Of a stretch of 64,000 nt of DNA, positions 6,025-41,949 are shown one piece after another. The notes beneath the pieces are model-generated. The model was not told the origin of the DNA and did no database searches. It saw nothing but the letters and a program-made list of their open reading frames with translations. The stretch comes from Mycobacterium sp. M26 (lineage in GTDB: Bacteria; Actinomycetota; Actinomycetes; Mycobacteriales; Mycobacteriaceae): assembly GCF_001494595.1 (NCBI RefSeq), contig NZ_LN929907.1, positions 1,369,468 to 1,433,467 on the forward strand. Direction: 5' to 3'. Position 1 is the first letter of the stretch. Every line of letters starts with the position of its first letter. Made by a program: the position numbers and the translations under genes.

Positions 6025-9000
6025 GCGCCGACACTTCGTCCCTAAACTTCGTCGGAGTTCGCGTCGTCGGCGGCTTGCTGCCCGCCGATCTGCTCGCCAA
6101 ACTCGTCGCGGGGCAAGTCCAGGATGGCCTGTCTTCCAAAGACTTCCATCTTGCAGCCGGCGAATCCGTGCGTGACGCAGCCAACCGGGTCTGGGCGTAC
6201 TTGCGTGGCGCCTGGACCACCTACCGCCAGGCTCTGGCGGCACTTCCAGATGCTGACGCGGCGACCGGTCTGACCCGGGAGCGCTTCACCCTTGTCCTGC
6301 TCGACCAACTCGGTTACGGCCGTGTCCACCCCACAGGCAAAGGCGGACTCCAAATCGGAGACCGAAGCTTCCCCGTCTCCCACCTGTGGGGCAATGTCCC
6401 GATTCACCTCCTTGGACGGGTACCACTGGATACCCGAACAAAGGGTGTTCCCGGCGCGGCCGGAGCCTCCCCACAGTCGATGGTGCAAGAACTCCTCAAC
6501 CGCTCTGATGACTACCTTTGGGCAATCTTGGCCAACGCGAACACGCTGCGACTGGTTCGGGACTCGACATCACTGGTGGGCTCCGCCTACATCGAATTCG
6601 ACCTGGAAGCCATCTTCGACGGAGATCTCTTCGCCGACTTCCTCCTCTTGTACTCGTTATGCCACGTCTCTCGGCTGGAAACCCGCGACACCGACATCGG
6701 CCCAGCCTCATGCTGGCTCGAGCGTTGGCGCCAAGAAGCCATCGAAACGGGCTCCCGAGCCCTGAACCTGCTGCGGGACGGCGTCGTCCAGGCGTTGCAA
6801 ACGCTGGGGTCTGGGTTCCTCACCCACCCCGACAACGCGAAGCTCCGCGAAGACCTCGCGAATGGCTCCATTACCGTCGAGGAGGTCAACCATGCGCTGC
6901 TGCGCGTGACTTACCGCCTTCTCTTCACCTTCGTTGCCGAAGACCGCAACGCGCTACTCGATCCCGAAGCGGACCCGCACGTCCGACGCAGGTATCTCGA
7001 CTACTTTTCCACCGAGCGGCTCCGCCGCGTATCCCGGCGCCGTCGCGGCGGCCGTTACGGCGACCGCTGGGAAGCGCTGAAAGTCGTATGGCGCGGGCTA
7101 GGAAGCGTCGACGGTCTACCGGAACTGGGCCTACCGGGAATCGGCGGCATCTTTGAGGCCGGCGCGCTGGACTTCCTCATGGACTGCTCGCTCAGCAATC
7201 AGGCATTGCAATCCGCGGTGTACTCGCTGTCGCTTGTTCGCGAACCGCGGTCCCAGGCCCTGAGAATCGTCGACTACCGAAACCTCGGGGCAGAAGAACT
7301 AGGCAGCATCTACGAATCACTGCTCGAACTCGTACCGAGCTGGGACCCGGCTACCAAAACCTACGCGCTGGTTGTGTCATCGGGTAACCAGCGCAAGGAC
7401 ACCGGCTCGTACTACACCCCCACCTCATTGGTGGAATCTCTCCTGGACACTGCCCTCGACCCGGTCCTGGACGACGCCGAAAAATCCGAGGCGCCCGAGC
7501 AAGCCCTCCTGCGAGTCACCGTCTGCGACCCGGCCTGCGGGAGCGGGCATTTCCTCGTCGGCGCGGCCCGCCGCATCGCCAAGCGGGTTGCAGCCCTGCG
7601 GACCGGAGACCCTGAGCCGGCACCCGAAGCAGTGCGTTCGGCGATGCGCGACGTTGTTGGACGCTGCATCTACGGCGTGGACCTCAACCCGCTCGCCGCC
7701 GAATTGGCCAAGGTGTCGCTGTGGCTGGAAGCCCTCGACCCGGGCCGGCCGCTGACATTCTTGGACGCGCAGATCAAAGTCGGCAACGCACTCGTCGGTG
7801 CAACGCCGCGACTCTTGGCCGACGGCGTTCCCAACGAGGCCTTCAAGCCGATCGAAGGTGACGACAAGAAGATCACCGCCACCCTGGCTAAGCAGAACAA
7901 AGCGGAACGCAGCGCCCAAGGCAGTCTCTTCGATGTCGACATGGTCGCCGCGAACACGCAACTCGCCGAGCAGGTTCAGAAGGTGGTCGCCGCGCCCGCG
8001 CTGTCACTAGCGGACGTACACGTGCAAGAGCAACGGCTACGCGCCTACACCGAATCGAGCGCCTACCGCCAGCAGCTTCTGGCAGCCAACGCGTGGTGCG
8101 CAGCGTTCGTATGGCCGAAGAGCCTCGGCGCCCCTCCGGCGGTCACCCAGCGGACGCTCACCGCGCTGCTCGACGGCGACGACAAGCTCACCGACAAGCA
8201 GCGCGTTGAAATCGACCGTCTAGCAGCCGAATACCGCTTCTTTCACTGGCACCTGGAGTTTCCACACATCTTCCCGACCGAACCAGACGACGACACAGTC
8301 AACGAGACGACCGGCTGGTACGGCGGGTTCTCCGTCGTGATCGGAAACCCGCCCTGGGAGCGAGTGAAGCTGCAGGAACAGGAGTTCTTTGCTGCCCGCG
8401 ATCCAGAGATCGCGAAGGCGCTCAACGCCGCAGTTCGTAAGAAACTCATTGCTGCACTTCCGTCTACGAGTCCGGCCCTTTTCGACGCGTTCATTGCTGA
8501 GAAACGGAACGCTGAGGGCTTCTCGCACTTCATGCGCAACTCTGACCGCTACCCACTGACCGGCCGCGGTGACATCAATACCTATGCAGTATTTGCCGAA
8601 ACCGACCGCGAACTCCTCGGCGGTAAGGGGCGGCTCGGAGTGGTCTTGCCGACCGGAATCGCAACTGATGCCACTACCCAGTACTTCTTTAAGAACCTCG
8701 TCGACAATGCTGCTATCGCCAGTCTTTACGACTTCGAAAACCGAAAGCCCCTTTTCGATGCGGTCGATAGCCGATTCAAGTTCTGCCTGCTCACCCTCAG
8801 TGGAAGGGACTTGCGCGAACCGCAAGCGGACTTCGCCTTCTTCGCGCACGATCCCACCGATCTGCAGCGTCCCGGGAATCGGTTCACGCTATCTCCTGCC
8901 GAAATTACCTTGCTAAATCCGAACACAGGTACCTGCCCCGTGTTCCGTTCCAGACGCGATGCAGAGATCACCCTAGGGATTTATAAGCGCCTTCCCGTCC

Positions 9001-24689: not shown

Positions 24690-27600
24690 TCAGGTTGGTT
24701 GTTTCGACAACTGTTGTTCTGCCGTCTCCACAAACGCGTTCAGAGTCGAGATGAGACGCATGTCCGCAACCGTGCGCGCGCGAGTATTCAGCAGTTCGTC
24801 GGTGCACACGAGGTAGGCGAGGCAACGGGCTCGGCTGATGGCGACGTTGAGCCGATTGCGGGAGAACAAGAAATCGACTCCGCGCGTCATGTCCTCGCCG
24901 GTCGAGGTCGCCATGCTGAAGAACACGACCGCAGCCTCACGGCCCTGGAACTTATCAACCGTTCCGACAGGTACTTCGGCAAGCCGCGGATCGCGTTCGA
25001 GCCGCGCCCGGATGGTGTTGACCTGATTGTTGTACGGCGCAACAACCATGAAATCGTTTGCCCGCAATGGCTTCTGCTCGCCATCGTGATCTGTCCAGTC
25101 GGTTTCAATCAAGCGCGACAATTCTTCGGCAATCAAGTCCGCCTCTTGTGTCGACGACGTCTTGTTGTCGCGGTGTTCGGCGCGCAGCCACCTGAGGCCG
25201 GTCCCGACGATGGTGGACTGCTGCGCACAATCAGGATGGCTCTCGAGGCGACCTTCGTAGATCTGATCGGAAATGAACTGGCAGACATCGGGGTGCATGC
25301 GCCGGGTCTCCGCAATGAACACGCCGCGGTCAGGCGGCAGAATGACATCCTGCTCCACGATGTGTTCAAGCACGCTGCGTCCCGCGATCCCGGGGTGATT
25401 GGCGTGAGCAACCTGCGGCAGCTGAAGCGGATCGCCGAGCATCAAGAGGCTGCGGGCAGCTCCTGACGCGGCGAGCGCGTCGGCGAGTGCAAGTTGGCCG
25501 GCTTCATCGATGAGCAGTACATCTACTGGTGCCGAGTGCATTTGAGGCGAGGAGAAGAGCCACGCGGTGCCCGCCACCAGATTGAACTCATGCCGCGCGC
25601 ACACATCGTTGTTCCCGTATCTGACCTCGGGGAGTCTCCGCGTCGAACTTGTGCCCGCGTTGCAGACCGCGCGCAGCAAGTCGAGATCGCCCTGGTCTTT
25701 AAAGAGGGCGACGACACGCTCGATCACGTTCGCGATCGCATGATGACTCACCGCGGTCACGCCAACTCGGCAGCCGTCCAGCACCAACGCCCGAATCAGC
25801 CGCGCTGCCCGGTAGGTCTTGCCCGTCCCGGGCGGTCCTTGAATCGCGACATAGCTGTTGTCGAGTTGCGTAACCCAGGCTGTCATGTCAGCCAGGTCGT
25901 CGATAAACACGCCTTCTCGAGGACCACCGCCAGTGAATCGTGGAAGATCCCTGCGCAAGAGCGAAAGGGTCACCGGGTTGGGGTTACGGCCTTCAAGAAC
26001 ATCATCGGCAAACCGCTGCAAGGCATCGGATTTGGATTTCGAAGAAACCCAATCATGCAGTACCGCTGCGCGAGGAAGGAAACCTCCTTGCTGCAGCTTC
26101 TCGGTCCACAGGAGTTCGACTAGGCCACTGTCCCGATCCAGAGAAACGATGGTGGCGTAGTACCTGTCGCCCAAGGGGTCTGCCACCATGACCGAGCCCC
26201 CCTTCTGTGAGAAGCGGTCCAGGTCTTGTGCCGGAAAGCTGAACTGCATTGCCGGCGTAAGCAGATTGTCCTTTTTGCCGGGGCGTTCGATTAGTCCGAC
26301 GGGGCGGAGATCGGCAATTGCCTCGGGATCATCGATAAGGTCGCTTGGGTCGGCTTCGAGCTTCGCCTTTTTCGGTGCTAGATAGGCGAACCACTCCGCA
26401 CGCCAGTAGCAAAGGAGATCTCCAAGATCGTGTTCAAGGGTACCAACCTCCCATTCATGTAGCCGAGCGATCGTCGCGTCGAGCTCGGGCAGCTCCGGGT
26501 CTGGTTCAACATAGGCTGACCGCCAAGCCATGTCGGGCGGGCGGTGCTCGATCAGCCAGTCGCGCAGGGCCATAGTCGCGCGAACGTCGTCTTGGTTGTA
26601 GAGGGCGATGGCATCGAGGTCGGCCTGGTTGGGGCTGCTCATATAGTGCCCGTATCGCACAACAGCACCGGCGCCCTTGTCGATGTCGTGTTGCCGCTCG
26701 AAGTCTGTCAAACGTTCCAAGTGCTTCAGTCCATACGATTCGGTTCCGGCCTGAATACTGTTGCGGGCAACTGATAACAGATCGACGAAGGCTCCCGTGT
26801 CGATCAGTTCCGCAAGTGTGAGTTCACCGACTCCGTGACTCTCCGCCATCTTCTGCAGCGAAGAGCGCTCAGTGTGGTTGTAGTGGTAGATGTGCATACC
26901 GGGAAAGCTGTCTCTACGCTTGCTCAGGTAGTCGATCAAGTTGCGGACCGCCTCAGCTTCCTGCCCGAGGTCGTGAGCCCACCACTGCCGGTACTCCCAG
27001 TTGCCCTCGGAGTCCTTTTCCAGCAGACCGAACAGGAAGAACAACCCCGCGTCAGCGCGCCAGAAGGGGTGGCCTTCAAAGTCGAGGAATACATCTCCGG
27101 CGTCGGGTTGCGGGAGCGTTTCGAGGCCGTGTCCCCAGTCGTCGTCATCGCCAGGTTCGATCATCGCGTAGGGCGGCGGGGCATCGGGTAGATCTCGGGC
27201 TGCCACCTGGAGTGCTGCTTGGCCCCGTAGACGGACTACCCGCTCCGGCTGTAGACCCTCAACGGGACCGTGGGTCTCGGCTAGGCCCGTCAAGGTGACG
27301 ATTCCCACACCGCGGAGGGCCGAGATGTCCTTCTGTCGGATGCCTGCGATGTAGATGAGGGAGTCTTCATTCCGCCATTGCTCTTCGCAGACGTCTCGGA
27401 ACTCGCAAAAGTCGCAGTGAGTGCACGGTTCAGGAGCAGTTTCAGCAGCCGGTCCTCGTTCGAGCGCGTCGGTGAGGCGACTGCGCAGACGGCGCCAGAA
27501 TGGCTGAAAAGCGTTAACTCGCAGAGACTCCAGCTTGCCCGAGCCCAACCAGATATGCATGTTCGTGGGCTGCGCACCTCTAAGGGCGGCGATAGCCTCG

Positions 27601-28055
27601 GCGTAGAAGCACAGCTGCAACACATGCCCAGGCTTGGCTTCGGCTCGGGTGAGTTTCGCGTCGACTGGCTCGTACGACACGACTCCTGTCTGGGGGTCCT
27701 CGACCCGGACCACGAAGTCCGCGACTCCACGAATCCCGTTGTGGGATAGAGGCATTTGGTAGATGACATCCCAGGCATCGTGAAGGGGGTCGCCGACACT
27801 CGCTACCCACGATGAAAAACACTGACCGCGCTCCTTTTCCGGGACACGCAAGATCGATTTGCCGGCGCGCTGATACTCGTCCAAACAGGCCTGCTCATGC
27901 GCAAGGCCTTTGTTCAACAGAAGTTGAGCAAATGACCCGAAAGCAAAATCTGGCTCGCTCCGGATCCCGTCGTCTACCTGGCTGCGTAGGGTCAGGTAAT
28001 GCGGGCAGTCCAGCCATGCTGTCACTTTGGACGGGGTGAGCAGCCGTTCTGTCAT
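24690..28055 (-). CDS. RecB/Cas4-like nuclease, RNase H-like exonuclease and SF1 helicase fusion (TM0106 type)
   Basis: 1121 aa. The N-terminal 230 residues are a RecB/Cas4-like nuclease: CPHYL near the start, DAKLTRAEAKPGHVLQLCFYAEA, and an Fe-S-type cysteine cluster (CTHCDFCEFRDVC). The middle third resembles the TM0106/RNase_H_2 3'-5' exonuclease (VFLDFEGHPF, YHYNHTERSSL, LKHLERL, YNQDDVRATMALRDWL). The C-terminal third is a DNA2/UPF1-type SF1 helicase: Walker A GPPGTGKTYRA, LLIDEAGQL, GDPLQLPQV, TVDKFQGREA and NVAISRARC. All catalytic motifs are present. It is probably a DNA repair or defence enzyme. The start overlaps the 86-aa upstream gene by 4 bp. Confidence 0.9.
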   Translation of the reverse strand: MTERLLTPSKVTAWLDCPHYLTLRSQVDDGIRSEPDFAFGSFAQLLLNKGLAHEQACLDEYQRAGKSILRVPEKERGQCFSSWVASVGDPLHDAWDVIYQMPLSHNGIRGVADFVVRVEDPQTGVVSYEPVDAKLTRAEAKPGHVLQLCFYAEAIAALRGAQPTNMHIWLGSGKLESLRVNAFQPFWRRLRSRLTDALERGPAAETAPEPCTHCDFCEFRDVCEEQWRNEDSLIYIAGIRQKDISALRGVGIVTLTGLAETHGPVEGLQPERVVRLRGQAALQVAARDLPDAPPPYAMIEPGDDDDWGHGLETLPQPDAGDVFLDFEGHPFWRADAGLFFLFGLLEKDSEGNWEYRQWWAHDLGQEAEAVRNLIDYLSKRRDSFPGMHIYHYNHTERSSLQKMAESHGVGELTLAELIDTGAFVDLLSVARNSIQAGTESYGLKHLERLTDFERQHDIDKGAGAVVRYGHYMSSPNQADLDAIALYNQDDVRATMALRDWLIEHRPPDMAWRSAYVEPDPELPELDATIARLHEWEVGTLEHDLGDLLCYWRAEWFAYLAPKKAKLEADPSDLIDDPEAIADLRPVGLIERPGKKDNLLTPAMQFSFPAQDLDRFSQKGGSVMVADPLGDRYYATIVSLDRDSGLVELLWTEKLQQGGFLPRAAVLHDWVSSKSKSDALQRFADDVLEGRNPNPVTLSLLRRDLPRFTGGGPREGVFIDDLADMTAWVTQLDNSYVAIQGPPGTGKTYRAARLIRALVLDGCRVGVTAVSHHAIANVIERVVALFKDQGDLDLLRAVCNAGTSSTRRLPEVRYGNNDVCARHEFNLVAGTAWLFSSPQMHSAPVDVLLIDEAGQLALADALAASGAARSLLMLGDPLQLPQVAHANHPGIAGRSVLEHIVEQDVILPPDRGVFIAETRRMHPDVCQFISDQIYEGRLESHPDCAQQSTIVGTGLRWLRAEHRDNKTSSTQEADLIAEELSRLIETDWTDHDGEQKPLRANDFMVVAPYNNQVNTIRARLERDPRLAEVPVGTVDKFQGREAAVVFFSMATSTGEDMTRGVDFLFSRNRLNVAISRARCLAYLVCTDELLNTRARTVADMRLISTLNAFVETAEQQLSKQPT

Positions 28056-32060: not shown

Positions 32061-32864
32061 TCACGCGGCGCTACTCGTACCCCCGGAAGATTCGACGACT
32101 GGCCGGTCCTTCTTCTCAGGCCTGACCAAGGTGGCCACCGTCGACCGCGACCACGGTCGCCCAGTCTTCGTCCGGTGCCCCCAAGAATTGAGGAAGGTCG
32201 CAGCCTCGACCCGCGTCATGCCGCACTGGTGAACGAGCCAACGCGCGAACCGCGTCAACCCAGGCTTGCGCTCACTCCACGTCATTCGGGTCGCGGGCAT
32301 TCCCGGATGCGGTCCGTACTGAACCTCCAACTGCCGCAGTGCTTCCGACAACTGGCAATCCCGCCCGTGCTCGTTGCGCGACGTTCGATTGAATTGCTCG
32401 CCCAGTGCTGCCTGAATCTCGTCGCACAACGTCACCGCACCGGCCGCCGCCATCGCCGCGTTGTCGAGCTCGTCCACGGCGTGAACTTCTCGGCGCAGTG
32501 CCACGTCGATCGCATTGATCCCACCATCCGGTGGGCAGTTCCACAGGTTCTTCCCTACAAGGAGGTCGAGACCGTGCCGTTGCAGCACCAGACTGAGCCG
32601 ACGCAGATGCTCTTCGCGGACGAAGTCGATGGGAAATGGGACCCAAACATTCAGATGGGTGCAGATCGCCCGCGACAGAGCGGTCACCACCGCGTCGAGA
32701 TCAGACAGATCATCTCTGGCGATGGCCTCGCCAGCTGGGAAGGTGTAGGTCTCGGCGATGAGGACACCGCACTCTGCTGCCCGTTCATCCAGCATCTCGC
32801 TGCGGGTGCCTGTGTCCGTGTCGCCGAGAACGATCACCACCGTGGATTTCGTCGAGCTCGTCAT
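32061..32864 (-). CDS. Orphan protein in ADP-ribosylglycohydrolase operon
   Basis: 267 aa. The ATG overlaps the stop of the upstream glycohydrolase-phosphatase gene by one base (TGATG), so they are co-translated. The N-terminal 110 residues (STVVIVLGDTDTGTRSEMLD, then ARDDLSDLDAVVTALSRAIC, THLNVWVPFPIDFVREEHLR) look like a Rossmann-like alpha/beta fold. The C-terminus (TRFARWLVHQCGMTRVEAA, SWGHRTKTGRPWSRSTVATL) resembles a helical DNA-binding tail of the kind seen in recombinase C-terminal domains. No catalytic motif recognised. Linkage suggests a role in nucleotide or ADP-ribose metabolism or sensing. Confidence 0.7.
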   Translation of the reverse strand: MTSSTKSTVVIVLGDTDTGTRSEMLDERAAECGVLIAETYTFPAGEAIARDDLSDLDAVVTALSRAICTHLNVWVPFPIDFVREEHLRRLSLVLQRHGLDLLVGKNLWNCPPDGGINAIDVALRREVHAVDELDNAAMAAAGAVTLCDEIQAALGEQFNRTSRNEHGRDCQLSEALRQLEVQYGPHPGMPATRMTWSERKPGLTRFARWLVHQCGMTRVEAATFLNSWGHRTKTGRPWSRSTVATLVRPEKKDRPVVESSGGTSSAA

Positions 32865-34321
32865 CAGGTCACCTCTCGTTCAGGCGTTGAGTCGTGTCGA
32901 TCTGCCTTCGGATCGAGCCGCGTGAGCGCAGCGCGGAACGCCGGGTTTGGGTACGCGCGGGGCAGCACTTCCTGCACATCGCGCAATGCATGCTCAGTAC
33001 TGATGTCGCGCAGGCGCGCGCCGTAGAGCGCACCGACCGTTGGCGTTCGGCTGTAGGCACCCACACAATGCACCAGCACTGTTCGCCCATCGGCGCGCAG
33101 CCGCTCGACGGCCTGGACCGCCTCGTTCAGCACGAAATCCAGATGCGGATTCTCATCAGGCTCGGAGCGGTCGATCAACCGGACCTCGACATGGGGGATG
33201 TCGTGACGGATGTCCTCGTCGGCCAGTCGGCACAACGACACAACGGCGTTGACCTGATCGGGCAGTTGGCGAAGGACTCCGATCCCGCCGAGGATGACCC
33301 TGTCGTCGTGCGGATGCACAGCCACCGTGTTGATCGGGGAGTCGTAGTAGCTGAAGTCAAAGGGATCGGGCCGGCCGCCTCGGGCGATCGCCGACCCGAG
33401 ACCGACGAGGTCGTGCGCCCGTAGGCCTGGCCAACCGTGCAGCAGGACGCGCCACTCGAGTGGCACAGCCGATGCACCATAGACCGCACCCAGCAAGCCT
33501 CCCGCGATCGCTGCCACCGTGTCGGTATCGGAACCGGCACGAACGGCGGCGTCGATGCCGTCGCGCAGATGACCGGCACGGGACCCGCCCGGGCGGGGAA
33601 GCGTGTGAGAGATCGCCGACCATGCCGCTTGCAGTGCCGCGACAGTCCATCCGTTGTTGGCGATCCCTGCCGGCCGAGAGGACTCCGCCTCGTCCAGGCG
33701 CTGCGCCCACAACCGGCGGCGCTCCGGATCGAGGTGACGCAACCCCACTCGGACGTCGAGCTCGGCATGCAAGACCGCATGCCGGATCGCCGTCGACCAC
33801 AACACGCAGGCGTCCCCGGCATCGGGATCGAAGTGGGTTAGTTCGCTGATTGCCCGAGCAGCCTCGACCAGTGAGACTTCGTCGTCGAGGTAGGCGAGTG
33901 CGAGCGGGGCCGTCCGCATCAGCGATCCGTTGCCACCCGTGCGACGGCCACTGCGATGCAGATCAGCCGAAGCCGCCCGGGCCCGCGCCGCCGAAATGCC
34001 CGAGCGGTCCGCCGATGACAGAACCGATCGGGTCTGGATGCCGACGTCCTTGGCATTGACGCTCCACTGCAGCCAGCGTGCCACGATCGCATCCTGCGAT
34101 GCTTCGTCTCGCAGATCGGCTCCAGTCGCGGCAACCTCGGCAATCGCGATGGCCATCGACGTGTCGTCGGTCCACTCGCCGGCAGCCCACGGTCCGCCGC
34201 CCACCATCGCGACTTCCAGTTCGGGTCCGCGGGTCGGTCCGAACTCGTACGGGGCTGCCAGTGCGTCCCCAGCTGCAGTGCCCAGCAGTACGCCCTCGAT
34301 GCGGTCATGAATCGACGCCAT
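32864..34321 (-). CDS. ADP-ribosylglycohydrolase fused to dual-specificity-type phosphatase
   Basis: 485 aa from ATG 34321 (GGGAGGGGG upstream; the longer frame is not needed). Residues 1-310 are an ADP-ribosylglycohydrolase: GVLLGTAAGDALAAPYEFG and the metal-binding WTDDTSMAI, which normally hold two Mg ions and release ADP-ribose from modified targets. Residues about 320-480 are a cysteine phosphatase with the loop HCVGAYSRT (CX5R) and a preceding general-acid region. The fusion predicts successive removal of ADP-ribose and of a phosphate, or processing of ADP-ribose phosphate. It is divergent from a frameshifted NrtR-type regulator with palindromes in between, so NrtR-type control is likely. 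Confidence 0.88.
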   Translation of the reverse strand: MASIHDRIEGVLLGTAAGDALAAPYEFGPTRGPELEVAMVGGGPWAAGEWTDDTSMAIAIAEVAATGADLRDEASQDAIVARWLQWSVNAKDVGIQTRSVLSSADRSGISAARARAASADLHRSGRRTGGNGSLMRTAPLALAYLDDEVSLVEAARAISELTHFDPDAGDACVLWSTAIRHAVLHAELDVRVGLRHLDPERRRLWAQRLDEAESSRPAGIANNGWTVAALQAAWSAISHTLPRPGGSRAGHLRDGIDAAVRAGSDTDTVAAIAGGLLGAVYGASAVPLEWRVLLHGWPGLRAHDLVGLGSAIARGGRPDPFDFSYYDSPINTVAVHPHDDRVILGGIGVLRQLPDQVNAVVSLCRLADEDIRHDIPHVEVRLIDRSEPDENPHLDFVLNEAVQAVERLRADGRTVLVHCVGAYSRTPTVGALYGARLRDISTEHALRDVQEVLPRAYPNPAFRAALTRLDPKADRHDSTPEREVT

Positions 34322-34341
34322 GCCGTCCCCCTCCCAATGCT

Positions 34342-34387
34342 TGATTTTGAGCGAAATCATTGCTAATTATTTAGCGATAGGATCGCT
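34342..34387. promoter_or_regulatory. Palindromic operator cluster between glycohydrolase and NrtR-like gene
   Basis: Three inverted repeats in 46 bp: TGATTT-N6-AAATCA (34342-34359), GCTAA-N4-TTAGC (34362-34375) and AGCGA-N5-TCGCT (34373-34387). A TGATTT...AAATCA palindrome recurs at the intact NrtR gene (45723-45750), which suggests an NrtR-type operator. Binding is inferred. Confidence 0.55.
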
Positions 34388-34420
34388 CTAATTCAGGTGC
34401 TCGCCGCTATGGTAACGGGC

Positions 34421-35094
34421 ATGACCGACAATAAATTCCGAGATTCCTCCGGGCGGGTGTTCGCCGACTACCCCCGGCCGTCGGTCGCTGTCGATATCGC
34501 TCCGTTGACGCCACACCCGGATGAAGGGCTACTCGTGCTTGAGGTCAGGCGCGATGTGACGGCGGGGTGGGCGTTGCCCGGAACGTTCCTCTGGGAGGGG
34601 AGCGCCTGGCCGACGCTGTCGAGCGTTGGCTTCGTGTCAAGGCAGGCGTTGAAGGTGTAGTGCCGCATCAACTGCAGGTCTTCGACGATCCTGAGCGCGA
34701 CGACCGCGGATGGGTTCTGTCGGTCGCCCACTGGGCGGCGGTTTCCCCAGAGCGCCTAGCGTCACGGTTACCGGCCGAAACCCGCCTGGTAGCGGTAAGC
34801 AGCCTGGGACGGCTGATCTACGACCATCGGCTGATCATCGCGGCCGCCGTCGAACATCTCCGCTCGCGCTATCGGGACCAACCCGATCCGGAGGGTCTCC
34901 TGGGTGCCACGTTCACCATGCTTCAGCTTCGCCTGCTCCATGAGGCCGTTGCGGGCGAGCGCTTGGACCGCGACGTATTCCGGAGGGAGATGAAGGACAA
35001 CCTGACTGCCACCGGGCAAGTGTCGGCGGGAGCCCGTGGGCGTCCTGCTGAGCTCTTCAAGAGAGTCAGGACGACGCGGGCGCGTAAGGGGTGA
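34421..35094 (+). pseudogene. NrtR-type Nudix regulator gene with one-base frameshift
   Basis: The first frame (ATG 34421) reads DYPRPSVAVDIAPLTPHPDE, WALPGTFLWEG and then shifts. The second frame resumes ERLADAVERWLRVKAGVEGV, HQLQVFDDPERDDRGWVLS and ends in GRPAELFKR. Side by side these match the intact NrtR at 45791 (WALPGAFLRRGETLAQAVERCL...FDDPERDNRDWVLSV...GRPAELFRR). Adding one G to the GGGG run at 34597-34600 joins the two parts. NrtR proteins carry a Nudix-like ADP-ribose-sensing domain and a winged helix that represses NAD genes. As it stands, the DNA-binding half could only be made from an internal start. Confidence 0.75.
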
Positions 35095-35120: not shown

Positions 35121-35250
35121 TGTCGGTGTCCTGAGCTATCCTTAACTCAGCTCAAGAGCGGACGGCTGTTCGGGTACCTGGCCCGCCGTCCCGGCAACCG
35201 CGCGACCACCGCACGGTGCCCCAGGGGAAGAGCTGGCACGCCAAGCGTGC
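35121..35250 (+). promoter_or_regulatory. SAM-I/SAM-IV-clan riboswitch-like element with promoter (copy 1)
   Basis: Promoter-like block TGTCGGTG (35121) and TATCCT (35137-35142). Predicted fold: P1 AGCTC/GAGCT (35149-35153, 35230-35234); AAGAG; P2 GGACGG/CCGTCC (35160-35165, 35186-35191); GGCAACC...CGGTGCC as P3 core (35193-35220); then a 6-bp hairpin GCACGC/GCGTGC (35236-35250) in the P5 position of SAM-IV. The AAGAG, GGCAACC and GGTGCC order is the SAM-clan signature. A purine-rich GGGGAAG that could be a ribosome-binding site overlaps the P1 3' strand. Confidence 0.55.
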
Positions 35251-35876
35251 AAGTGGTGGGTGTCCCGAGGGCGGCGCCGCCAGAACGGCGAACGATTTAC
35301 GAACAACATGTCAGCGCGACCGATGCGGCCTTACGTCAGCGTATTCACCACCTTGGCGTCCACATTCCGTGCGGTCGAATCCGTGGCCCAGTAGGAGGTT
35401 TCGGCCCGCGACTGTGGCAATCATGCTCCTGCGAAGACTATCCTTTGAGGTGGCCAACTGGAGATATTTCTGAAGACCGTGCGCTATGCATCATCTGCTT
35501 TCGGGGCACGGCCGGCGGTCCATCTCGGTGGGCATGGCTAGCGTGCAACGAATGCCGCATCAGCAATGAGCGGATCCGAGCTCGCACAGGAGTACGCCCT
35601 TTTGCTCTTGGCCGGCACAGCCTCATGAACGGAATCGGAGTTCCAGGTGGAGCCCCGCCGGAGATTGTGTCCGAAGAGACCGCGAGGCTCATCGAGTTCG
35701 CCCGCGGTGATGGGCGTTTGAAGGCTTGGAAGGTACGGGAGTACGGACGGTTGTCGGCGGCCTTCGATCCACTTGCCGACGTCCCGCTCCGCGAGTGGCA
35801 ACAACAGTGGCCACCCAGTCATTCAGCGTCGGCTGACGCCTTCTCGCGGGTTCTTGAGACGCATCCTGATGCGTGA
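35247..35876 (+). CDS. Cysteine-rich orphan protein behind riboswitch-like element
   Basis: About 209 aa. The start is uncertain: GTG codons at 35247, 35253 and 35256 are all in frame and no strong separate ribosome-binding site is seen. The middle carries a possible zinc-binding module (CSCEDYPLRWPTGD, ALCIICFRGTAGG, ACNECR). The remainder is basic and unrecognised; the tail is LREWQQQWPPSHSAS. The product is probably cytoplasmic. It sits immediately after the RNA element at 35121-35250, so its expression is likely controlled by it. Confidence 0.6.
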   Translation: MQVVGVPRAAPPERRTIYEQHVSATDAALRQRIHHLGVHIPCGRIRGPVGGFGPRLWQSCSCEDYPLRWPTGDISEDRALCIICFRGTAGGPSRWAWLACNECRISNERIRARTGVRPFALGRHSLMNGIGVPGGAPPEIVSEETARLIEFARGDGRLKAWKVREYGRLSAAFDPLADVPLREWQQQWPPSHSASADAFSRVLETHPDA

Positions 35877-36020
35877 TCATCTGCACGACTGCCGGATTCG
35901 ATCATCCGGCAAGTGGAGGCTACGACCCCGAAGCGTTTCGGGAGTGTCCACACAGGTTCCTGTTCTCTGGCTCCGCGTCAGTCCTTGCCGCTACCGTTGG
36001 AGACGGTAGGAGGTAGAGGC

Positions 36021-37214
36021 ATGAATGTCGAGAATCCAGGGAGATCATCGGCTGCGGATCGTAGTGATTGGCACCAGATCGGCATTGGCGATGATGTTGT
36101 TCCATTCGCCGTATCGGCATTTGGGAACCCTGAACAGGCGAGGAGTTGGATAGCGATTCTGGACAAGGCGCCGCTGCGTCCAGTGCGCGGAGGCCTGGAG
36201 CCCCTCTGGCGCAATGTCTCGTTTCTGCGCGAGTTGGCTGATTCCGGCCTAGACTGCCTTGCCTTTCAGCGATGGAGGGACGCCGGATCCGATGCCTCTG
36301 CGGTACCGCGGTGGGCGAAGATGTTCGGCTCCCGTGGTCTGGGTCCTGAACACTTCTCGCGATGGAACACTCTGGGCCTCAACGTCGGGGATCTACCGGC
36401 GGTGCTGTCGGATCTCGATTTCAGCAGTGCCACTGATCTCTTGACCAACTGGGGCTCCGTGTCGCCACTGTCGAGTACCGGAGAGTTGTTGGAGGTCTTA
36501 CGACGTGGATTGAACGTTGAGCAGCTGCGAGGGCTGCTGGCGGTCGGGTTTACCGGTCATCAGGTCTTCCTTTGGCATTCCCGGACCATCCCAGTACAGG
36601 AGTGGCTCCCGTGGATCGCGATCGGCGTAACGCCTGAGGCTGCGAATGACTATTTCTCGGCGGGGTTCTCGCCAGACTTGGCTGCCCCGTGGATTTCTGC
36701 ACGTGTCCCTGCCGAAGACGCCAAGGAGTTCATCGAGCTTCGCGTGGATCCAGCGCAAGCTGAGGACTATGCCCGGCGTGGGATCGCACCGGTGCTACTG
36801 ACCCGGACGGAGGATCGGATCGAGGAGATCGACTATGAAGAACTTATGATCCTCGAAGACCTCGAGGGTCTGCCATCGATCGTCGGGCACGGCGACATCA
36901 ACTTCGTCCGGCACTCAGCGCTAGCAGCGAGCGACTATGTTCCCTATGACTTCTCGTTCACCTGGAATGGCGGCCGAAGTGCTTCATGGCAGATGGACAT
37001 CAGCATCACCGCAGAGCTCTCGCCAGCGTCAAGCTCTCCTTCGACCGGGACACTGTCCTGGCCGAATGGACGTGACCTTGTCATCACTCACGAATGGATC
37101 GAGATGGATCGCTATGAGGAGGCCGTCCTAGAGGGGCAAGCGCCCGACAATCTTGCCGATCCTCGCCAATGGATTCATCTCGCCGACGTAATCCTGGGTT
37201 TCGTCCTTGTTTAG
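36021..37214 (+). CDS. Orphan protein with repeated helical segments and beta C-terminal domain
   Basis: 397 aa from ATG 36021 (GGAGG 8 bp upstream). Residues about 90-280 contain loosely repeated units beginning with GL- or GV- and containing -FS-W- or -A--WI (GLGPEHFSRWNTLGLNVGDL, GFTGHQVFLWHSRTIPVQEW, VTPEAANDYFSAGFSPDLAA), suggesting a helical repeat. The C-terminal domain (DFSFTWNGGRSASWQMDI, GTLSWPNGRDLVITHEW) is shared with the frameshifted gene at 28341-28780. Function unknown. The 144 bp upstream contain no recognised riboswitch. Confidence 0.7.
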   Translation: MNVENPGRSSAADRSDWHQIGIGDDVVPFAVSAFGNPEQARSWIAILDKAPLRPVRGGLEPLWRNVSFLRELADSGLDCLAFQRWRDAGSDASAVPRWAKMFGSRGLGPEHFSRWNTLGLNVGDLPAVLSDLDFSSATDLLTNWGSVSPLSSTGELLEVLRRGLNVEQLRGLLAVGFTGHQVFLWHSRTIPVQEWLPWIAIGVTPEAANDYFSAGFSPDLAAPWISARVPAEDAKEFIELRVDPAQAEDYARRGIAPVLLTRTEDRIEEIDYEELMILEDLEGLPSIVGHGDINFVRHSALAASDYVPYDFSFTWNGGRSASWQMDISITAELSPASSSPSTGTLSWPNGRDLVITHEWIEMDRYEEAVLEGQAPDNLADPRQWIHLADVILGFVLV

Positions 37215-37257
37215 GCAATCCAGTTCAGCGCCGCAGGTCTGGTCCTGCTCCGGATCA

Positions 37258-38178
37258 GTGTTGGGTTTTGACATCATCGGTGATGTTCACGGAGACGCTG
37301 CGAAGTTGACGGCACTGCTTCGACGACTGGGTTACGTGATCGATCCCGTTACCGGCGCGTACGCGCACTCCGAACGTCGAGCCGTGTTCGTCGGTGATCT
37401 GATCGATAAGGGGGGCGCGCAATTGGACACGCTTCTGATCGTCAAGGCGATGGTCGACCACGGAGCCGCTCGGGTAGTGATGGGTAACCACGAGTTCGAC
37501 GCCATCGCCTACGCGGCTGGCGGTGGTAGGCGGAACGATACGTTCCTGGACCTGAGCGCTGATGATCAACGCCACTACACGGAGTGGTTCAAGATGCTGC
37601 CACTGGGATTGCAACTTCGACTCGAGCGGCATCCGATCACGGCGAGGGTGGTGCATGCCTGCTGGCATGCCGAGTCGATGCATGAACTCGAATCCGCCTC
37701 TGCGTTGACAGGCGGTGTCCTCGACTTCGCGAAAGTCCTTGATCGGAGAGCGAATCCGACCCTGTGCGGGACCGTTGGCGTCTTGATCAACGGTCCGGAT
37801 GTCAGCGTTGCAGACTACGGGGCGCTGCGCGACGGCGGCGGAAGCGTGCGAACCAGGACATGGGTTAGATGGTGGGACGCCGGCGCGACCACACTGCGTG
37901 ACCTCGCCTATACACGTGGCGCAACTGCTGAGGGCGGCGGTCACTATCCTGCATTGCCAGCCGTCGAGTCCGATGCGAACAAGTATGTATACCGAGAGGC
38001 TGTTCCGGTCATCTATGGTCACTACCTACGGGAATGGCGCAGTCGTGATGAGGATTTCACACCGTACGCGGCGTGCGTTGATTTCAGCGGCGGAGCCGAC
38101 GGCCCGCTTGTCGCGTACCGCTGGAGCGGTGAGCCGACCCTCAACCTGTCGAACTATGTACGCCACGATCTGGGCTAG
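37258..38178 (+). CDS. Calcineurin-like metallophosphoesterase
   Basis: About 306 aa from GTG 37258; the open frame begins earlier, but the conserved FDIIGDVHGD motif starts at residue 4. Metal-binding motifs GDVHG, GDLIDKGG and GNHEFD (about residues 8, 48 and 80) and the later histidines (VVHACWHAES, YGHYLREW) are intact. The family includes PrpE/ApaH-type phosphatases acting on phosphoproteins or dinucleotides. It is a paralogue of the gene at 38516-39565 but diverged. Situated among NAD/ADP-ribose genes, it might act on nucleotide diphosphates; this is inference. Confidence 0.82.
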   Translation: MLGFDIIGDVHGDAAKLTALLRRLGYVIDPVTGAYAHSERRAVFVGDLIDKGGAQLDTLLIVKAMVDHGAARVVMGNHEFDAIAYAAGGGRRNDTFLDLSADDQRHYTEWFKMLPLGLQLRLERHPITARVVHACWHAESMHELESASALTGGVLDFAKVLDRRANPTLCGTVGVLINGPDVSVADYGALRDGGGSVRTRTWVRWWDAGATTLRDLAYTRGATAEGGGHYPALPAVESDANKYVYREAVPVIYGHYLREWRSRDEDFTPYAACVDFSGGADGPLVAYRWSGEPTLNLSNYVRHDLG

Positions 38179-38244
38179 CGTGACTATGCGTGTTGACGGT
38201 CCCTAGTTCTGGCTGAACGGTATTTGACCTTCCACGGCAGGGGG

Positions 38245-38508
38245 TCATGAATCCGGATCGAGAAAGGCCCGTTCCTCGTCGGCCAAGTCATAGATTGACC
38301 ACAGCACGGCCTCTGCCTCGATCTCATCGTCACATGCCTCGAATTCGCTTATCTTCCGTGCTAACTCGGATTCGTCACCCTGTTCTTGGGAGGCATACCA
38401 CTCAGAAGCGCGGAGTAACGCGGCGATCTGGTCGCGTCTTTCCAGTCCGTCCCCATCGCCTTTGAGTATCGACCCCCAGCCATTCACGACGAACTTCCAG
38501 TTGGCCAT
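38245..38508 (-). CDS. Small acidic protein downstream of metallophosphoesterase
   Basis: 87 aa from ATG 38508, 7 bp after the stop of the metallophosphoesterase gene, with GGTAAGG upstream. Helical and acidic (LARKISEFEACDDEIEAEAV, LADEERAFLDPDS). No family recognised. It is likely to be co-transcribed with the phosphoesterase from the RNA element at 39611-39741. Confidence 0.65.
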   Translation of the reverse strand: MANWKFVVNGWGSILKGDGDGLERRDQIAALLRASEWYASQEQGDESELARKISEFEACDDEIEAEAVLWSIYDLADEERAFLDPDS

Positions 38509-38515
38509 CGGTGCC

Positions 38516-39565
38516 TTACCGCTCTCGCCCTTGCTTCTTGGTCTGCGCGCGGTCTGTAGAAGACGAATGAGCCACCGATACATAATTTTCCGTCTGTATG
38601 CGCTTCTCACCGGACCACCGATACGCAGTGAGTTGGCCCCCCTTGACCGCACTGAAGTCGACGCATGCGGTGTAGTCGGTCCAGTCGTGGCGGTGGGTCG
38701 GGGCTCCGCTTCGCCAATAGTGGCCGTAGAACACCGGAACCTGATCCTGGTAGATGTGCCCCTGGTGATCGGTCGCGACTTCAGTTTCCGGCAGTGTCGG
38801 GTACGGGTCGCCTTCGGAGGTGAAGAACTTGCCGCCCATCTCGGCGAGGTGGTGCAACGTCGCGACGCCGTCGTGCCACCAGCGCAGCCGAGCGCGGTCG
38901 CGGGAGTGGCCGTCCTTGTCGACGTATGGCTGATGGCCATGATCGACCAGGCTGATCTCGGGCCCTTTGAGAAGCGTCTCGACCGCCGTGTACAGCGGGT
39001 CGCCCTTGGTTGAGGCTCGCACGAGTTGGTCGAGCTCGATGAAGCGGCTGCCGCCGAGCTCACGTTCCACAACGGCGATCGACTCGCCGTGCCAGCACGC
39101 GTGCACCACCCGCAGCCCGCCGAGGTCTAGCCACAGCGGTTGGGTCCAGAACCACGCCAGGTAGTGCTCGCGATCGGCTCCCGTGACCTGCGCGAGAAAA
39201 TCCCTGTGCTGACTCTCGTTCTTCGCCGACCACGGATCTGTTGGGTCGTCGTGCGGACGCAGGTACTTACCGGATCCCGCGGGCCACTCCGTGGCGTACG
39301 CCATCGCGTTGAACTCGTGGTTACCGAGGACCATCTGGGCGCTGCCGGAATCGACCATCGCCTTGACGATCTGCAGCACACGTAGCTGTTCGGGGCCGCG
39401 GTCGATGAGATCACCGACGAAGACTGCGGTGCGCTGCGGGTGGCGGTACGCGCCGCCAGCGCCGTTCTGGGTGTACCCAAGTGCGTTCAGCAAGGCTTCT
39501 AATTCGGTTGCGCATCCATGGATGTCGCCGATGATGTCGTAGCCAGGCAGACTCGATGCGCTCAT
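38516..39565 (-). CDS. Calcineurin-like metallophosphoesterase behind riboswitch-like element
   Basis: 349 aa from ATG 39565 (GAGGGAGAAA upstream). The frame stays open much further upstream but that part runs through the RNA element and is not protein-like. Motifs GDIHGC, GDLIDRGPEQ, GNHEFNAM and YGHYWRS show an intact bimetal phosphoesterase. It resembles the gene at 37258 (FVGDLID.GG or GPEQL, VKAMVD.G.A..V.GNHEF) and has a 40-residue insertion after GNHEF. The RNA element on the minus strand upstream probably regulates it. Substrate unknown. Confidence 0.85.
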   Translation of the reverse strand: MSASSLPGYDIIGDIHGCATELEALLNALGYTQNGAGGAYRHPQRTAVFVGDLIDRGPEQLRVLQIVKAMVDSGSAQMVLGNHEFNAMAYATEWPAGSGKYLRPHDDPTDPWSAKNESQHRDFLAQVTGADREHYLAWFWTQPLWLDLGGLRVVHACWHGESIAVVERELGGSRFIELDQLVRASTKGDPLYTAVETLLKGPEISLVDHGHQPYVDKDGHSRDRARLRWWHDGVATLHHLAEMGGKFFTSEGDPYPTLPETEVATDHQGHIYQDQVPVFYGHYWRSGAPTHRHDWTDYTACVDFSAVKGGQLTAYRWSGEKRIQTENYVSVAHSSSTDRAQTKKQGRER

Positions 39566-39610
39566 GCTTTTCTCCCTCTGACAGCCACTCCCCGCGGAGT
39601 CGGCGCTCTT

Positions 39611-39741
39611 GCCCGCACCGGTCGGTGCGGGCCGCTTCGTCATCCGAGCCACCCGCGAACGTGGGGTTGGCGCACCACCTAGTCGGAGCTGGGCGATGGT
39701 GTCTCTTGAAGCGCCTTCAGGATATCGGGGGCCACCGACAA
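39611..39741 (-). promoter_or_regulatory. SAM-I/SAM-IV-clan riboswitch-like element with promoter (copy 3)
   Basis: Read on the minus strand: TTGTCGG (39741-39735), TATCCT (39724-39719), P1 CGCTTC/GAAGCG (39713-39708, 39638-39633), AAGAG, P2 CACCA/TGGTG, then GCCAACC (39671-39665) and GGTGGC (39653-39648), TCGGATGA, and a 10-bp hairpin (39632-39611) in the P5 position. Compared with the other two elements, GGCAACC/GGTGCC has become GCCAACC/GGTGGC, a compensatory change that keeps the P3 pairs. Confidence 0.55.
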
Positions 39742-39805
39742 GATTGGTTGAAAGGCGCAGGATTTTTCCCCGCCGCTGTCGTACTGCTGTGGTACACCAC
39801 AATCG

Positions 39806-41464
39806 ATGCCTATCACCCTCCCGGCTGAACCACGCCTCGCCAACGAGACCGAGCGCAAGGTCTGGCGGCTGCTCGTCGAGCAGCTCGGCGAGCACGACCT
39901 CGTCGTCGCCGGCCAGCGCGTCACCGATCACCTGAAGGACCACGAAGTCGACTTTGTCGTAGCGATCGAGGGCGCTGGGGTCGTCTGCGTGGAGGTCAAG
40001 GGCGGTGAGGTGTGGCATGACGGAGCCCGCTGGTGGCAGAAGAGCCGGGGCGGTCACGTCAAGGAGATCGAGCCGGTTCGTCAGGCCCGCGAGGCTTGCT
40101 ACGCGCTGCGGGAGTTCATCGAGGCCGACCCGCGGTGGACCCAAGGCCGCCTCCGCTGGGACCACGTCGTGGTCTTCCCGAATTCACATGTAGCACAGGA
40201 CTTCGCGATCGGGGATTGCCCACGCTGGAAGGTCATCGACCGCGACGACCTACCGACCCTCGTCGGGCGCCTCCGCAACGTCGTCGTCCGGCAGGAGATC
40301 GACCGCCCAATCCTCTCCCAAACCGGCATCGAGCAACTCCACACAGCGCTGAGCGGCCGGGGCCTACCGCAGCGCGACGTCGTCGCCCGTGCCCTGGAGA
40401 ACGAAGACGCCGCCGACATCTTGACCGAACGGCAAGCCGTCATCCTCGACGCGATCAAGCTCCTCAACCGCGTCGAGGTTCGTGGGGGAGCGGGCAGCGG
40501 CAAGACGTTCATGGCCGTCGAACAGGCCCGCCGGCTGGCCAAGGACGGTCAGCGCGTCGCCTTGCTGTGCTACTCCCACGGCCTCGCGTCCTACCTGAAG
40601 CGCATCACCAAGAACTGGTCGCATCGCCAACAGCCCGGCTACGTCGGCGAGTTCCACGCTCTCGGTATCCGGTGGGGAGCGCCGACCGGCCCAGCCGAAT
40701 CCGAACGCACCCAGCAGGCCTCCCAGTTCTTCGAGCATGACCTGCCTGAGCTGATGCTCGATCTGGCCACCAATCTCGAGATGGGCCATCGCTTCGACTC
40801 CATCGTCATCGACGAGGCTCAGGACTTCGCCGACAGCTGGTGGGACCCCCTGCTGGCTGCGCTTAAGGATCCCGACACAGGTGGCATCTACGTCTTCAGC
40901 GACGAGGGTCAGCGCGTCTTCGACCGGCAAGGCACCCCGCCTGTGCCGCTGGTGCCGCTCATTCTCGACCACAACATCCGCAACACCCGACAGATCGCCA
41001 CCGCCTTTCAACCCCTGGTCGACCACCCGATGCGCTACCTGGGCGGCGACGGCCCTGAGGTCACGTTCGTGCCCTGCAGCCGCGACGACGCGATGGACGT
41101 CGGCGACGATCAGATCGACCGCCTGCTCGACGACGGCTGGCGTCCCGAGGACGTCGCACTGCTGACTACTGGAAGCCGGCACCCGGAGCAGGTCGCCCGC
41201 CAGGAAGAGGGGACCGAGTCCTATTGGGACAGCTTTTGGGATGCGGAGCAGGTGTTCTACGGCCACGTCCTGGGGTTCAAGGGGCTCGAACGCCGAGCGA
41301 TCGTCCTGGTCGTCAACGACAAGGGTGCATTTGAGCGATCCCGGGAACGCCTCTATGTCGGATTGTCCAGGGCCCGTGACCAACTCGTTGTCTGCGGGGA
41401 TCCGGGCTTCATTGCCGAAGTGGGCGGTTCGGATTTCGCTCGCCGCCTCGGAATCGCCATCTAG
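39806..41464 (+). CDS. NERD-domain nuclease-like protein with SF1 helicase
   Basis: 552 aa from ATG 39806. Residues 1-130 form a NERD domain (KVWRLLVEQLGEHDLVVAGQ, HEVDFVVAIEGAGVVCVEVKGG), a nuclease-related fold whose D...ExK residues are present. Then a UvrD-type helicase: Walker A GGAGSGKTFMA (about 230), SIVIDEAQDF (about 335), DHNIRNTRQIA, and the C-terminal VLGFKGLERRAIV and YVGLSRARDQL. NERD-helicases occur in phage-defence islands and plasmids. It is divergent from the phosphoesterase gene. It may be a DNA repair or defence enzyme. Confidence 0.88.
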   Translation: MPITLPAEPRLANETERKVWRLLVEQLGEHDLVVAGQRVTDHLKDHEVDFVVAIEGAGVVCVEVKGGEVWHDGARWWQKSRGGHVKEIEPVRQAREACYALREFIEADPRWTQGRLRWDHVVVFPNSHVAQDFAIGDCPRWKVIDRDDLPTLVGRLRNVVVRQEIDRPILSQTGIEQLHTALSGRGLPQRDVVARALENEDAADILTERQAVILDAIKLLNRVEVRGGAGSGKTFMAVEQARRLAKDGQRVALLCYSHGLASYLKRITKNWSHRQQPGYVGEFHALGIRWGAPTGPAESERTQQASQFFEHDLPELMLDLATNLEMGHRFDSIVIDEAQDFADSWWDPLLAALKDPDTGGIYVFSDEGQRVFDRQGTPPVPLVPLILDHNIRNTRQIATAFQPLVDHPMRYLGGDGPEVTFVPCSRDDAMDVGDDQIDRLLDDGWRPEDVALLTTGSRHPEQVARQEEGTESYWDSFWDAEQVFYGHVLGFKGLERRAIVLVVNDKGAFERSRERLYVGLSRARDQLVVCGDPGFIAEVGGSDFARRLGIAI

Positions 41465-41470
41465 CTGCCT

Positions 41471-41605
41471 TGTCGGCGCTTTCGCTACCCTTGACCTACG
41501 GCCAAGAGATTCGCTCCCACGCCTCCGAACGTGAGCGAACGGCAACCGCGCGACCGGCACGGTGCCCTTCGGAGAAGGCCTGGATCGGTGGCGAACGCTG
41601 CCGGT
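41471..41605 (+). promoter_or_regulatory. SAM-I/SAM-IV-clan riboswitch-like element with promoter (copy 2)
   Basis: Promoter-like block TGTCGGCG (41471) and TACCCT (41486-41491). P1 GGCC/GGCC (41500-41503, 41577-41580); AAGAG; P2 TCGCT/AGCGA plus CACG/CGTG (41511-41538); GGCAACC (41541-41547) and GGTGCC (41561-41566); GGAGAA; then a 9-bp hairpin (41584-41605) in the P5 position. It shares GGCAACCGCGCGACC with copy 1 while the P2 stems differ in sequence but keep their pairing. Confidence 0.58.
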
Positions 41606-41631
41606 CAAGACGGACGAGCCTGGAGTGTGAC

Positions 41632-41949
41632 ATGCCCCATTACGGTGATGAGCCCTGGAAGATCTATTGGCGTGTTCTCTGCCCTGAGTGGACAGCGGAA
41701 CAACGACATTGGTACGGCAAGTGGAAGTCCCAGGAGATGTGCATGGGTCTCTTCAACAAGAGGCAGTCTGCTAGGCAGGAATGGTTCCGTAACCGGCAGG
41801 GGCGCGCGTTCGTCCATCCCACGACCGTGGTCACCTACCACGCAACACCGGCGCGTTCGTTGACGGCGAAGGTCTGCCTTCAGTGCCTGTGGGTTTCGCG
41901 CGACCTGGAGGCGAACCATGAGTCACCTGAAGCGCAACCGATAGCCTGA
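41632..41949 (+). CDS. Small Trp-rich orphan protein behind riboswitch-like element
   Basis: 105 aa from ATG 41632 with GGAG 6 bp upstream, 26 bp after the RNA element. Aromatic-rich N-terminus (EPWKIYWRVLCPEWTAEQRH, WYGKWKSQEMCMGLF), basic middle (NKRQSARQEWFRNRQGRAF), and a late CLQC pair that could bind metal. No family recognised. It is the clearest target of the upstream RNA because nothing lies between them. Confidence 0.6.
   Translation: MPHYGDEPWKIYWRVLCPEWTAEQRHWYGKWKSQEMCMGLFNKRQSARQEWFRNRQGRAFVHPTTVVTYHATPARSLTAKVCLQCLWVSRDLEANHESPEAQPIA

Follow-up and report, generated by a model that had tools for sequence, protein, structure and literature searches.

SAM-IV-fold RNA leaders of three subclasses behind PafBC-type promoter boxes in Mycobacterium sp. 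M26: a likely gate for DNA damage and low SAM

The DNA analyzed here is a 64-kb stretch of contig NZ_LN929907.1 of Mycobacterium sp. M26, hereafter the window. It carries three RNA elements, each of which lies between a promoter box and a gene outside sulphur metabolism. The only Rfam matches of the window at gathering thresholds were these three, all to the SAM-IV family of S-adenosylmethionine (SAM) riboswitches (RF00634, cut-off 38 bits). The aptamers, their boxes and their first genes are as follows.

35121..35142, + strand: PafBC/RecA-NDp-type box of copy 1, TGTCGGTG-N8-TATCCT
35150..35261, + strand: aptamer copy 1, subclass A (RF00634 72.8 bits, E 5.3e-11)
35262..35294, + strand: leader segment of copy 1 from the aptamer to the coding region; a short hairpin lies beside the start
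35247..35876, + strand: open frame of the HIPCG Cys-rich orphan, first gene of copy 1
39719..39740, - strand: PafBC/RecA-NDp-type box of copy 2, TGTCGGTG-N8-TATCCT
39600..39711, - strand: aptamer copy 2, subclass B (RF00634 76.5 bits, E 7.8e-12)
38516..39565, - strand: metallophosphoesterase, client of copy 2 (Pfam PF00149)
41471..41491, + strand: PafBC-like box of copy 3, TGTCGGCG-N7-TACCCT, with spacer N7 and not N8
41500..41617, + strand: aptamer copy 3, subclass C (RF00634 58.9 bits, E 7.6e-8)
41632..41949, + strand: small Trp-rich orphan, client of copy 3 (no Pfam match)

The initial annotation had placed the three RNAs in the SAM-I/SAM-IV clan, and the covariance search agreed with this, SAM-IV being the best match (58.9-76.5 bits). 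Covariance models built with the respective copy included gave 139.5 bits for copy 1 (model R2), 130.6 bits for copy 2 (R1) and 140.6 bits for copy 3 (R3). The parts described at that time, P1, an AAGAG-type motif (more exactly A[AC]GAG), P2 (P2a/P2b), the P3 core and P5, are all present, and P4 is missing as described. The SAM-IV fold comprises P1, P2a/P2b, P3, P5 and the pseudoknots PK-1 and PK-2, with no P4 (PMC6890682); the absence of P4 is therefore as expected. Both pseudoknots were found in all three copies, with letters that differ and yet are complementary. PK-1 is formed by CCTGG/CCAGG in copy 1, TCCGA/TCGGA in copy 2 and CTCCGAA/TTCGGAG in copy 3. In PK-2, the P3 loop is paired with a strand 3' of P5; in copy 3 (type C) it amounts to only 3-4 pairs, as judged by eye. 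The positions of the others are given below.

35177-35181 with 35221-35225, + strand: PK-1 of copy 1
35206-35210 with 35255-35259, + strand: PK-2 of copy 1
39687-39683 with 39647-39643, - strand: PK-1 of copy 2
39661-39657 with 39608-39604, - strand: PK-2 of copy 2
41523-41529 with 41568-41574, + strand: PK-1 of copy 3

Each of the three RNAs is a riboswitch leader of SAM-IV fold, and each represents a diverged subclass of its own. The RF00634 scores from 25 genomes, among them several chosen for having many matches, formed one group at 93-124 bits and another at 58-81 bits. Outside the source genome, 23 of the 24 low-scoring copies fell into three sequence types (14 B, 7 A, 2 C), each of which corresponds to one copy of the window. 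Within the genus, model R1 found type B in 77 of 396 genomes (106 rows, 85-138 bits; next match 67.5 bits), with one extra row of 70.1 bits clipped by a contig end. Model R2 found type A in 39 of 396 genomes (41 rows, 115-139 bits; next match 42.0 bits), and R3 found type C in 5 of 336 (5 rows, 112-142 bits), the previously found G386 not being among them. These genome counts are lower bounds, since stricter search filters apply above 40 genomes. A family-wide search of 341 genomes showed that type B scores extend into other genera, and the set of other-genus type B copies used below comprises 20 copies of 88.7-118.7 bits. In a midpoint-rooted tree of 179 aptamers, type A (33/33), type C (3/3) and type B together with its other-genus copies (109/109) were clades, with support values of 1.0, 1.0 and 0.85, respectively; the canonical copies formed no clade without type A.

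The genome (5.73 Mb) has one further SAM-IV aptamer, which is canonical (111.2 bits; locus L001) and precedes a Cys/Met pyridoxal phosphate (PLP)-dependent enzyme. A SAM-IV riboswitch of M. avium likewise precedes O-acetylhomoserine sulfhydrylase (PMC3774663). The window copies share with L001 the elements P1, P2a/P2b, P3, P5, PK-1 and PK-2 and the core positions, whereas their scores (58.9-76.5 bits), P1 pairs, P3 and PK-1 letters differ. They also differ in having a damage-type promoter box and ADP-ribose-linked or orphan clients instead of the Cys/Met PLP enzyme.

The fold is borne out by covariation in type B, for which an alignment of 89 copies (87 distinct) was available. Standard pairs occupied 97.7% of the cells, and 17 of 38 pairs had two-sided changes. 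None of 500 shuffles attained any of five measures of covariation, and sliding the partner abolished the signal. PK-1 was paired in 99.8% and PK-2 in 97.7 and 98.5%. High figures are favoured by the relatedness of the rows and by the fitting of the alignment to the nested pairs; the pseudoknot pairs were unfitted. PK-1 is nearly invariant within type B, and its paired changes are seen between types.

A block of TGTCGG[TC]G, 7-8 nucleotides and TAnnnT, noticed early as common to the three RNAs, is indeed present at all three copies. It fits the consensus of the RecA-independent damage promoter (RecA-NDp), tTGTCRgtg-N8-TannnT (PMC5656591). This promoter type has since been attributed to PafBC (PMC8223512), a regulator engaging a -26 element (PMC10693628, PMC11804915). 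The window boxes have in common with this regulon both the consensus and the -26 position. Its members named in PMC8223512, in contrast, are DNA repair and stress genes, unlike the window clients. Copies 1 and 2 match TGTCRG-N8-TAnnnT exactly, and the spacer of copy 3 is one base short. The pattern TGTCRGN{9,11}TANNNT occurs 6 times in the window (the three aptamer boxes and three others) against 0.74 expected, a count that 0 of 100 shuffles reached. Across the genome there are 29 instances of TGTCRGYGN{7,9}TANNNT, compared with 12 of the reversed control. A general sigma-70 scan gave no promoter at the three window sites. The genome has tandem WYL proteins (C9:1859727 and 1860698) arranged as PafB and PafC would be, which are candidates for this regulator. 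We infer that PafBC uses these promoters.

The association of box and aptamer extends beyond the window. A strict box at the right place was found in 57 of 89 type B copies, 24 of 33 type A copies (5/9 in a smaller set), one of three type C copies and 4 of 20 other-genus type B copies, versus 0 of 33 canonical copies; shuffles gave 0.02 per 101. With a loose box the figures were 66/89 for B, 29/33 for A, 1/3 for C, 5/20 for other-genus B and 3/33 for the canonical copies. The spacer was N8 in 51 of the 57 strict matches of type B and in all 24 of type A. Among further type C copies, a box was seen by eye in one of three (L329). The window aptamers begin 7-8 bases behind their boxes, and in the strict matches the -10 element ends 7-9 nucleotides before P1; the transcript would therefore begin at the aptamer. 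The initial annotation had spoken of a local regulon. Its components, three RNAs, a shared block and non-sulphur genes, all stand, and the restriction to one locus does not, since the arrangement recurs in many mycobacteria.

As had been noted for the window, the first genes are of non-sulphur type: a Cys-rich orphan, a metallophosphoesterase and a Trp-rich orphan. A Pfam search of the Cys-rich and Trp-rich proteins gave no match, and for the metallophosphoesterase the nearest NCBIfam models were Pnkp and ApaH/PrpE, all below cut-off. To describe the first genes elsewhere, 101 copies (89 B, 9 A, 3 C) were surveyed with heuristic gene calling. Ten families account for 87 of the 101 first genes, the other 14 being singletons that were only partly tested. 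These families are a GHxxHW orphan (20), ADP-ribosylglycohydrolase (15), the HIPCG Cys-rich orphan (12), an LLGDHD orphan (11), a weak TY-Chap3 family (8), a SWGPY orphan (7), metallophosphoesterase (6), an ankyrin family (3), the type C orphan (3) and one pair. A HIPC-bearing frame of the HIPCG family lies behind 23 of 33 type A copies. Relatives of the Trp-rich orphan lie behind type C in L073, L080, L327 and L328, and not visibly in L329. For the GHxxHW orphan, the protein database contains 146 relatives; those listed have no Pfam domain and those named are hypothetical.

These clients bear on the simplest explanation, namely that the RNAs are ordinary SAM-IV riboswitches which control accessory genes for methionine or methylation, and that the promoter resemblance is incidental. 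The Rfam family and the kept core agree with it, as does one type B copy that precedes a Cys/Met PLP enzyme. The tested first-gene families, however, are orphans, ADP-ribosylglycohydrolase, metallophosphoesterase, ankyrin and the weak TY-Chap3 family, and the strict box is absent from all canonical copies while most type B copies have it. We regard this explanation as improbable.

The neighbourhood of the aptamers was characterized in 78 loci fetched by aptamer. Several of these come from one genome, L071 and L075 belong to other genera, and L075 has no A, B or C copy. The other features of the window that enter the comparison are the following.

32864..34360, - strand: ADP-ribosylglycohydrolase (ARG) fused to a dual-specificity phosphatase domain (Pfam PF03747 above cut-off)
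34409..34430, - strand: further PafBC-like box without aptamer, 48 nucleotides upstream of the ARG frame
34567..35094, + strand: winged-helix part of NrtR, an ADP-ribose-responsive repressor family (Pfam PF21906; NCBIfam NF050029 below cut-off)
37261..38178, + strand: second metallophosphoesterase, a paralogue (Pfam PF00149)
39806..41464, + strand: NERD-UvrD helicase between copies 2 and 3 (Pfam PF08378; PADLOC RTasNERD-Hel 131 bits)

The phosphatase part of the ARG protein matched PF00782 with 33.2 bits, just under the cut-off of 33.5. In tblastn searches with the window proteins, relatives of ARG were found in 32 of the 78 loci, of the metallophosphoesterase in 17, of an orphan at 32061-32864 in 15, of NrtR in 13 and of the Cys-rich orphan in 13. 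Fewer loci had relatives of the helicase-nuclease at 24690-28055 (8, two of them partial matches), the NERD helicase (7, one partial), the second phosphatase (6, two partial) and the Trp-rich orphan (2). NadR and PnuC were each found in just one of the 78 loci, and NAD salvage was accordingly rejected as a common theme. When the window was added to the loci (79 sources), a weak TY-Chap3 family was seen in 11 sources and a vWA-like family in 8; neither is in the window. In 20 genomes, 13 of 18 ARG copies lay within 5 kb of a variant aptamer, a figure without weight as several genomes had been picked for an ARG client.

This gene content resembles the ARG-centric systems, which are predicted to undo viral ADP-ribosylation (PMC9503650, section 3.8). 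Their described parts are an ADP-ribosylglycohydrolase with a rhodanese-type phosphatase, a calcineurin-like phosphatase and a regulator of the Nudix kind; chaperones, TY-Chap among them, and vWA frequently accompany these parts (PMC9503650). The window has in common with them ARG with a dual-specificity-type phosphatase domain, a calcineurin-like phosphatase and a Nudix-family regulator, the NrtR_WHD protein beside ARG; its relatives elsewhere add the weak TY-Chap3 and vWA matches. Unlike the published description, the parts in the window and its relatives are divided among a number of small transcripts, of which many have a box and an aptamer of their own, and the main text of PMC9503650 makes no mention of riboswitches. 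A second precedent is SCO6735, a Streptomyces DNA ADP-ribose hydrolase under a RecA-NDp promoter (PMC5087735, PMC9411070). It shares with the window the reversal of ADP-ribosylation under the same damage promoter type, and differs in being a macrodomain instead of ARG; the available text of these papers mentions no riboswitch. Searches of the available literature on PafBC and on SAM-IV in mycobacteria, which includes few subscription papers, gave no description of a riboswitch leader behind a damage box.

Taken together, it seems likely that the SAM-IV-fold leaders behind PafBC-type damage promoters form a two-input gate responding to damage and low SAM. The genes would likely be switched on only when DNA is damaged and SAM is scarce. 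Single-stranded DNA arising from damage would start the transcript at the PafBC-type promoter, whose expression would be released once the SAM level drops. SAM binding would thus turn expression off, which is the usual direction for SAM riboswitches. After an attack by genotoxic agents or phages, the client genes would then strip ADP-ribose from macromolecules and process it. The RNA brake would also come off when a phage both damages DNA and breaks down SAM; a SAM lyase that destroys SAM is known from phage T3 (PMC11580459). This lyase, the ARG parts list and the SCO6735 precedent make the gate plausible. SAM-IV riboswitches have been known from sulphur metabolism, and here about 150 subclass copies, counted by score, are described. 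Types A and B are mostly joined to the main mycobacterial DNA-damage promoter type, near parts of a predicted anti-ADP-ribosylation system. If the gate is real, a DNA-damage response would be gated by a metabolite-sensing RNA, and the ARG systems would have a further regulator.

The identity of the ligand was considered from the pocket positions, which are numbered after SAM-I. Equivalents of G11, C44, A45, A46, U57 and G58 are retained by nearly all type B copies (88-89 of 89) and by every copy of type A (33) and type C (3). Pair 7-87 of P1 is U-A in the canonical copies, in type A (33/33) and in type B (87/87 distinct). At pair 6-88, 30 of 34 canonical copies have G-C (the other 4 were parsed as G-T) and all 33 type A copies have C-G; of the 87 distinct type B copies, 74 have U-A, 11 G-C and 2 another pair. 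The type B counts were taken from the alignment of distinct copies, since automatic parsing of the P1 pairs left 7 of the 89 type B rows and 13 of the 20 from other genera unread and, in some rows, took the far strand wrongly. Since the SAM-contact core is kept, SAM is the favoured ligand of all three types, possibly with altered discrimination. The ligand may nevertheless have changed, because the subclasses are not alike in the P1 pairs that adjoin the sulfonium site.

In such a case, the subclasses would sense another adenosine compound (S-adenosylhomocysteine (SAH), methylthioadenosine or an ADP-ribose breakdown product), the RNA replacing the Nudix/WYL sensors. In SAM-I, the preference for SAM over SAH depends on carbonyl groups of uracils in the minor groove of P1 (PMC8603990), and a ligand shift would hence show at the P1 pairs. 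Pair 6-88 does differ among canonical, A and B copies, pair 7-87 is changed in type C, and ADP-ribose genes lie in the neighbourhoods. On the other hand, the other core positions and the U7-A87 pair are kept in types A and B, and the negative charge of ADP-ribose would demand a remodelled pocket. A changed ligand therefore seems rather unlikely to us. Its stronger form, that types A, B and C are new SAM-IV-fold classes which read a nucleotide from ADP-ribose or phage-attack processing and no longer SAM alone, is also doubtful; if true, an RNA would hold the sensor role of Nudix/WYL proteins, in series with a DNA-damage promoter. If the gate is real, the subclass aptamers would also be useful test pieces, as they vary in the P1 pairs on the side of the helix by which SAM-I distinguishes SAM from SAH.

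How SAM binding would act on expression was examined in the leaders. Of 78 type B leaders, 66 have their start codon 29-35 nucleotides downstream of the aptamer, and a scan of the three window leaders found no terminator-like site. For these reasons the control is presumably translational. Type A leaders have a hairpin beside the start in 28 of 33 cases against 10.3 expected from shuffles. Hiding of the ribosome site was considered as a visible switch and was rejected as such, since folding showed no excess over shuffles; the translational switch is left as an inference. The folding test could be scored for 3 of 9 type A and none of 3 type C leaders.

This result leaves room for an explanation in which the RNA binds no metabolite and is maintained as a structured 5' end for protecting or positioning the transcript. 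The transcripts would start about at P1, the folding revealed no expression switch, and an extra hairpin, P6, directly follows PK-2 in type B as a perfect 6-bp stem (69 of 89 copies against 5.0 expected from shuffles). The ligand core, however, is more conserved than P2 and P5, which would be needless for a scaffold. We consider this explanation very improbable and retain the two-input gate.

Several facts weigh against the gate. Its ligand, damage induction and direction of switching are deduced from sequence. In 78 of the 89 type B leaders, ribosome-site hiding was 0.63 on average versus 0.64 with shuffled upstream sequence. The strict box is missing in 32 of 89 B, 9 of 33 A and 2 of 3 C copies, and most other-genus copies are without it (4/20 have it). 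The P1 pair at the sulfonium site departs from the canonical one in type A and most of type B, and the U7-A87 equivalent is C-G in all 6 type C copies seen. Copy 3 combines the weakest aptamer score with an N7 box and a rare type. In the family-wide search, the gap between type B and canonical scores was small (74.4 vs 70.0). The window ARG gene has a box upstream but no aptamer of its own, the TY-Chap3 and vWA matches in relatives are under the Pfam cut-offs, and one client, that in L162, is of sulphur type, the only one seen.

In L162, the type B aptamer (6178-6289) precedes a short remnant, a rhodanese-like frame and the Cys/Met PLP enzyme. The 24th low-scoring copy mentioned above, L075 6246-6357, is of a degenerate canonical type with a changed core base, belongs to another genus and precedes what we read as a cysteine-dioxygenase-like frame. 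None of the 20 other-genus loci had ARG, NrtR or metallophosphoesterase in tblastn with the window proteins; the GHxxHW orphan was found in 9 and a histone-deacetylase-like gene in 5. Histone-deacetylase-like genes occur in the other-genus type B loci L071, L244, L250, L251, L253 and L254; of these, L071 and L254 also contain a vWA-like gene.

The exact type B letters were found in 67 stretches of named records, mostly from Mycobacterium, Mycolicibacter, Mycolicibacterium and Mycolicibacillus, and also in two Rhodococcus records and two oddly named metagenome-assembled genomes (MAGs). L304, a MAG named Akkermansiaceae, carries type B letters, probably owing to a binning error. A phage origin was rejected, as the exact type A and B patterns had no match among viral contigs. 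A plasmid origin was rejected as well; plasmids gave one partial type B match, which covered 36% of the query and came from an Arthrobacter record, but no match for the type A pattern or a HIPCG protein. As for known anti-phage systems, PADLOC matched 2 of 10 proteins, the NERD helicase and the 24690-28055 helicase-nuclease, and such a system was not adopted as an explanation; the three orphan client families had no PADLOC match. For two orphan families the predicted structures were too poor for a fold search (mean predicted local distance difference test scores of 59 and 51).

In the client of copy 1, the position of the relatives' conserved start, near 35295, is a non-standard start codon. 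An upstream or a rare start codon may be used, or the gene may be in decay; some of its relatives are intact. A Nudix-like part of NrtR can be read by us in another overlapping frame, 34397-34660 (no Pfam match). The window NrtR (34397-35094) may thus be frame-broken; its winged-helix relatives align over 95-159 residues in 13 other loci. The protein encoded at 24690-28055 combines RNase H, PD-(D/E)XK and helicase parts and is related to PADLOC MkoA. A DUF3293 protein (L068 3981-4484) was seen in 3 of the 79 sources and in 3 of the 20 other-genus loci. The type B copy at L077 6132-6254 has a short tandem duplication in P2.

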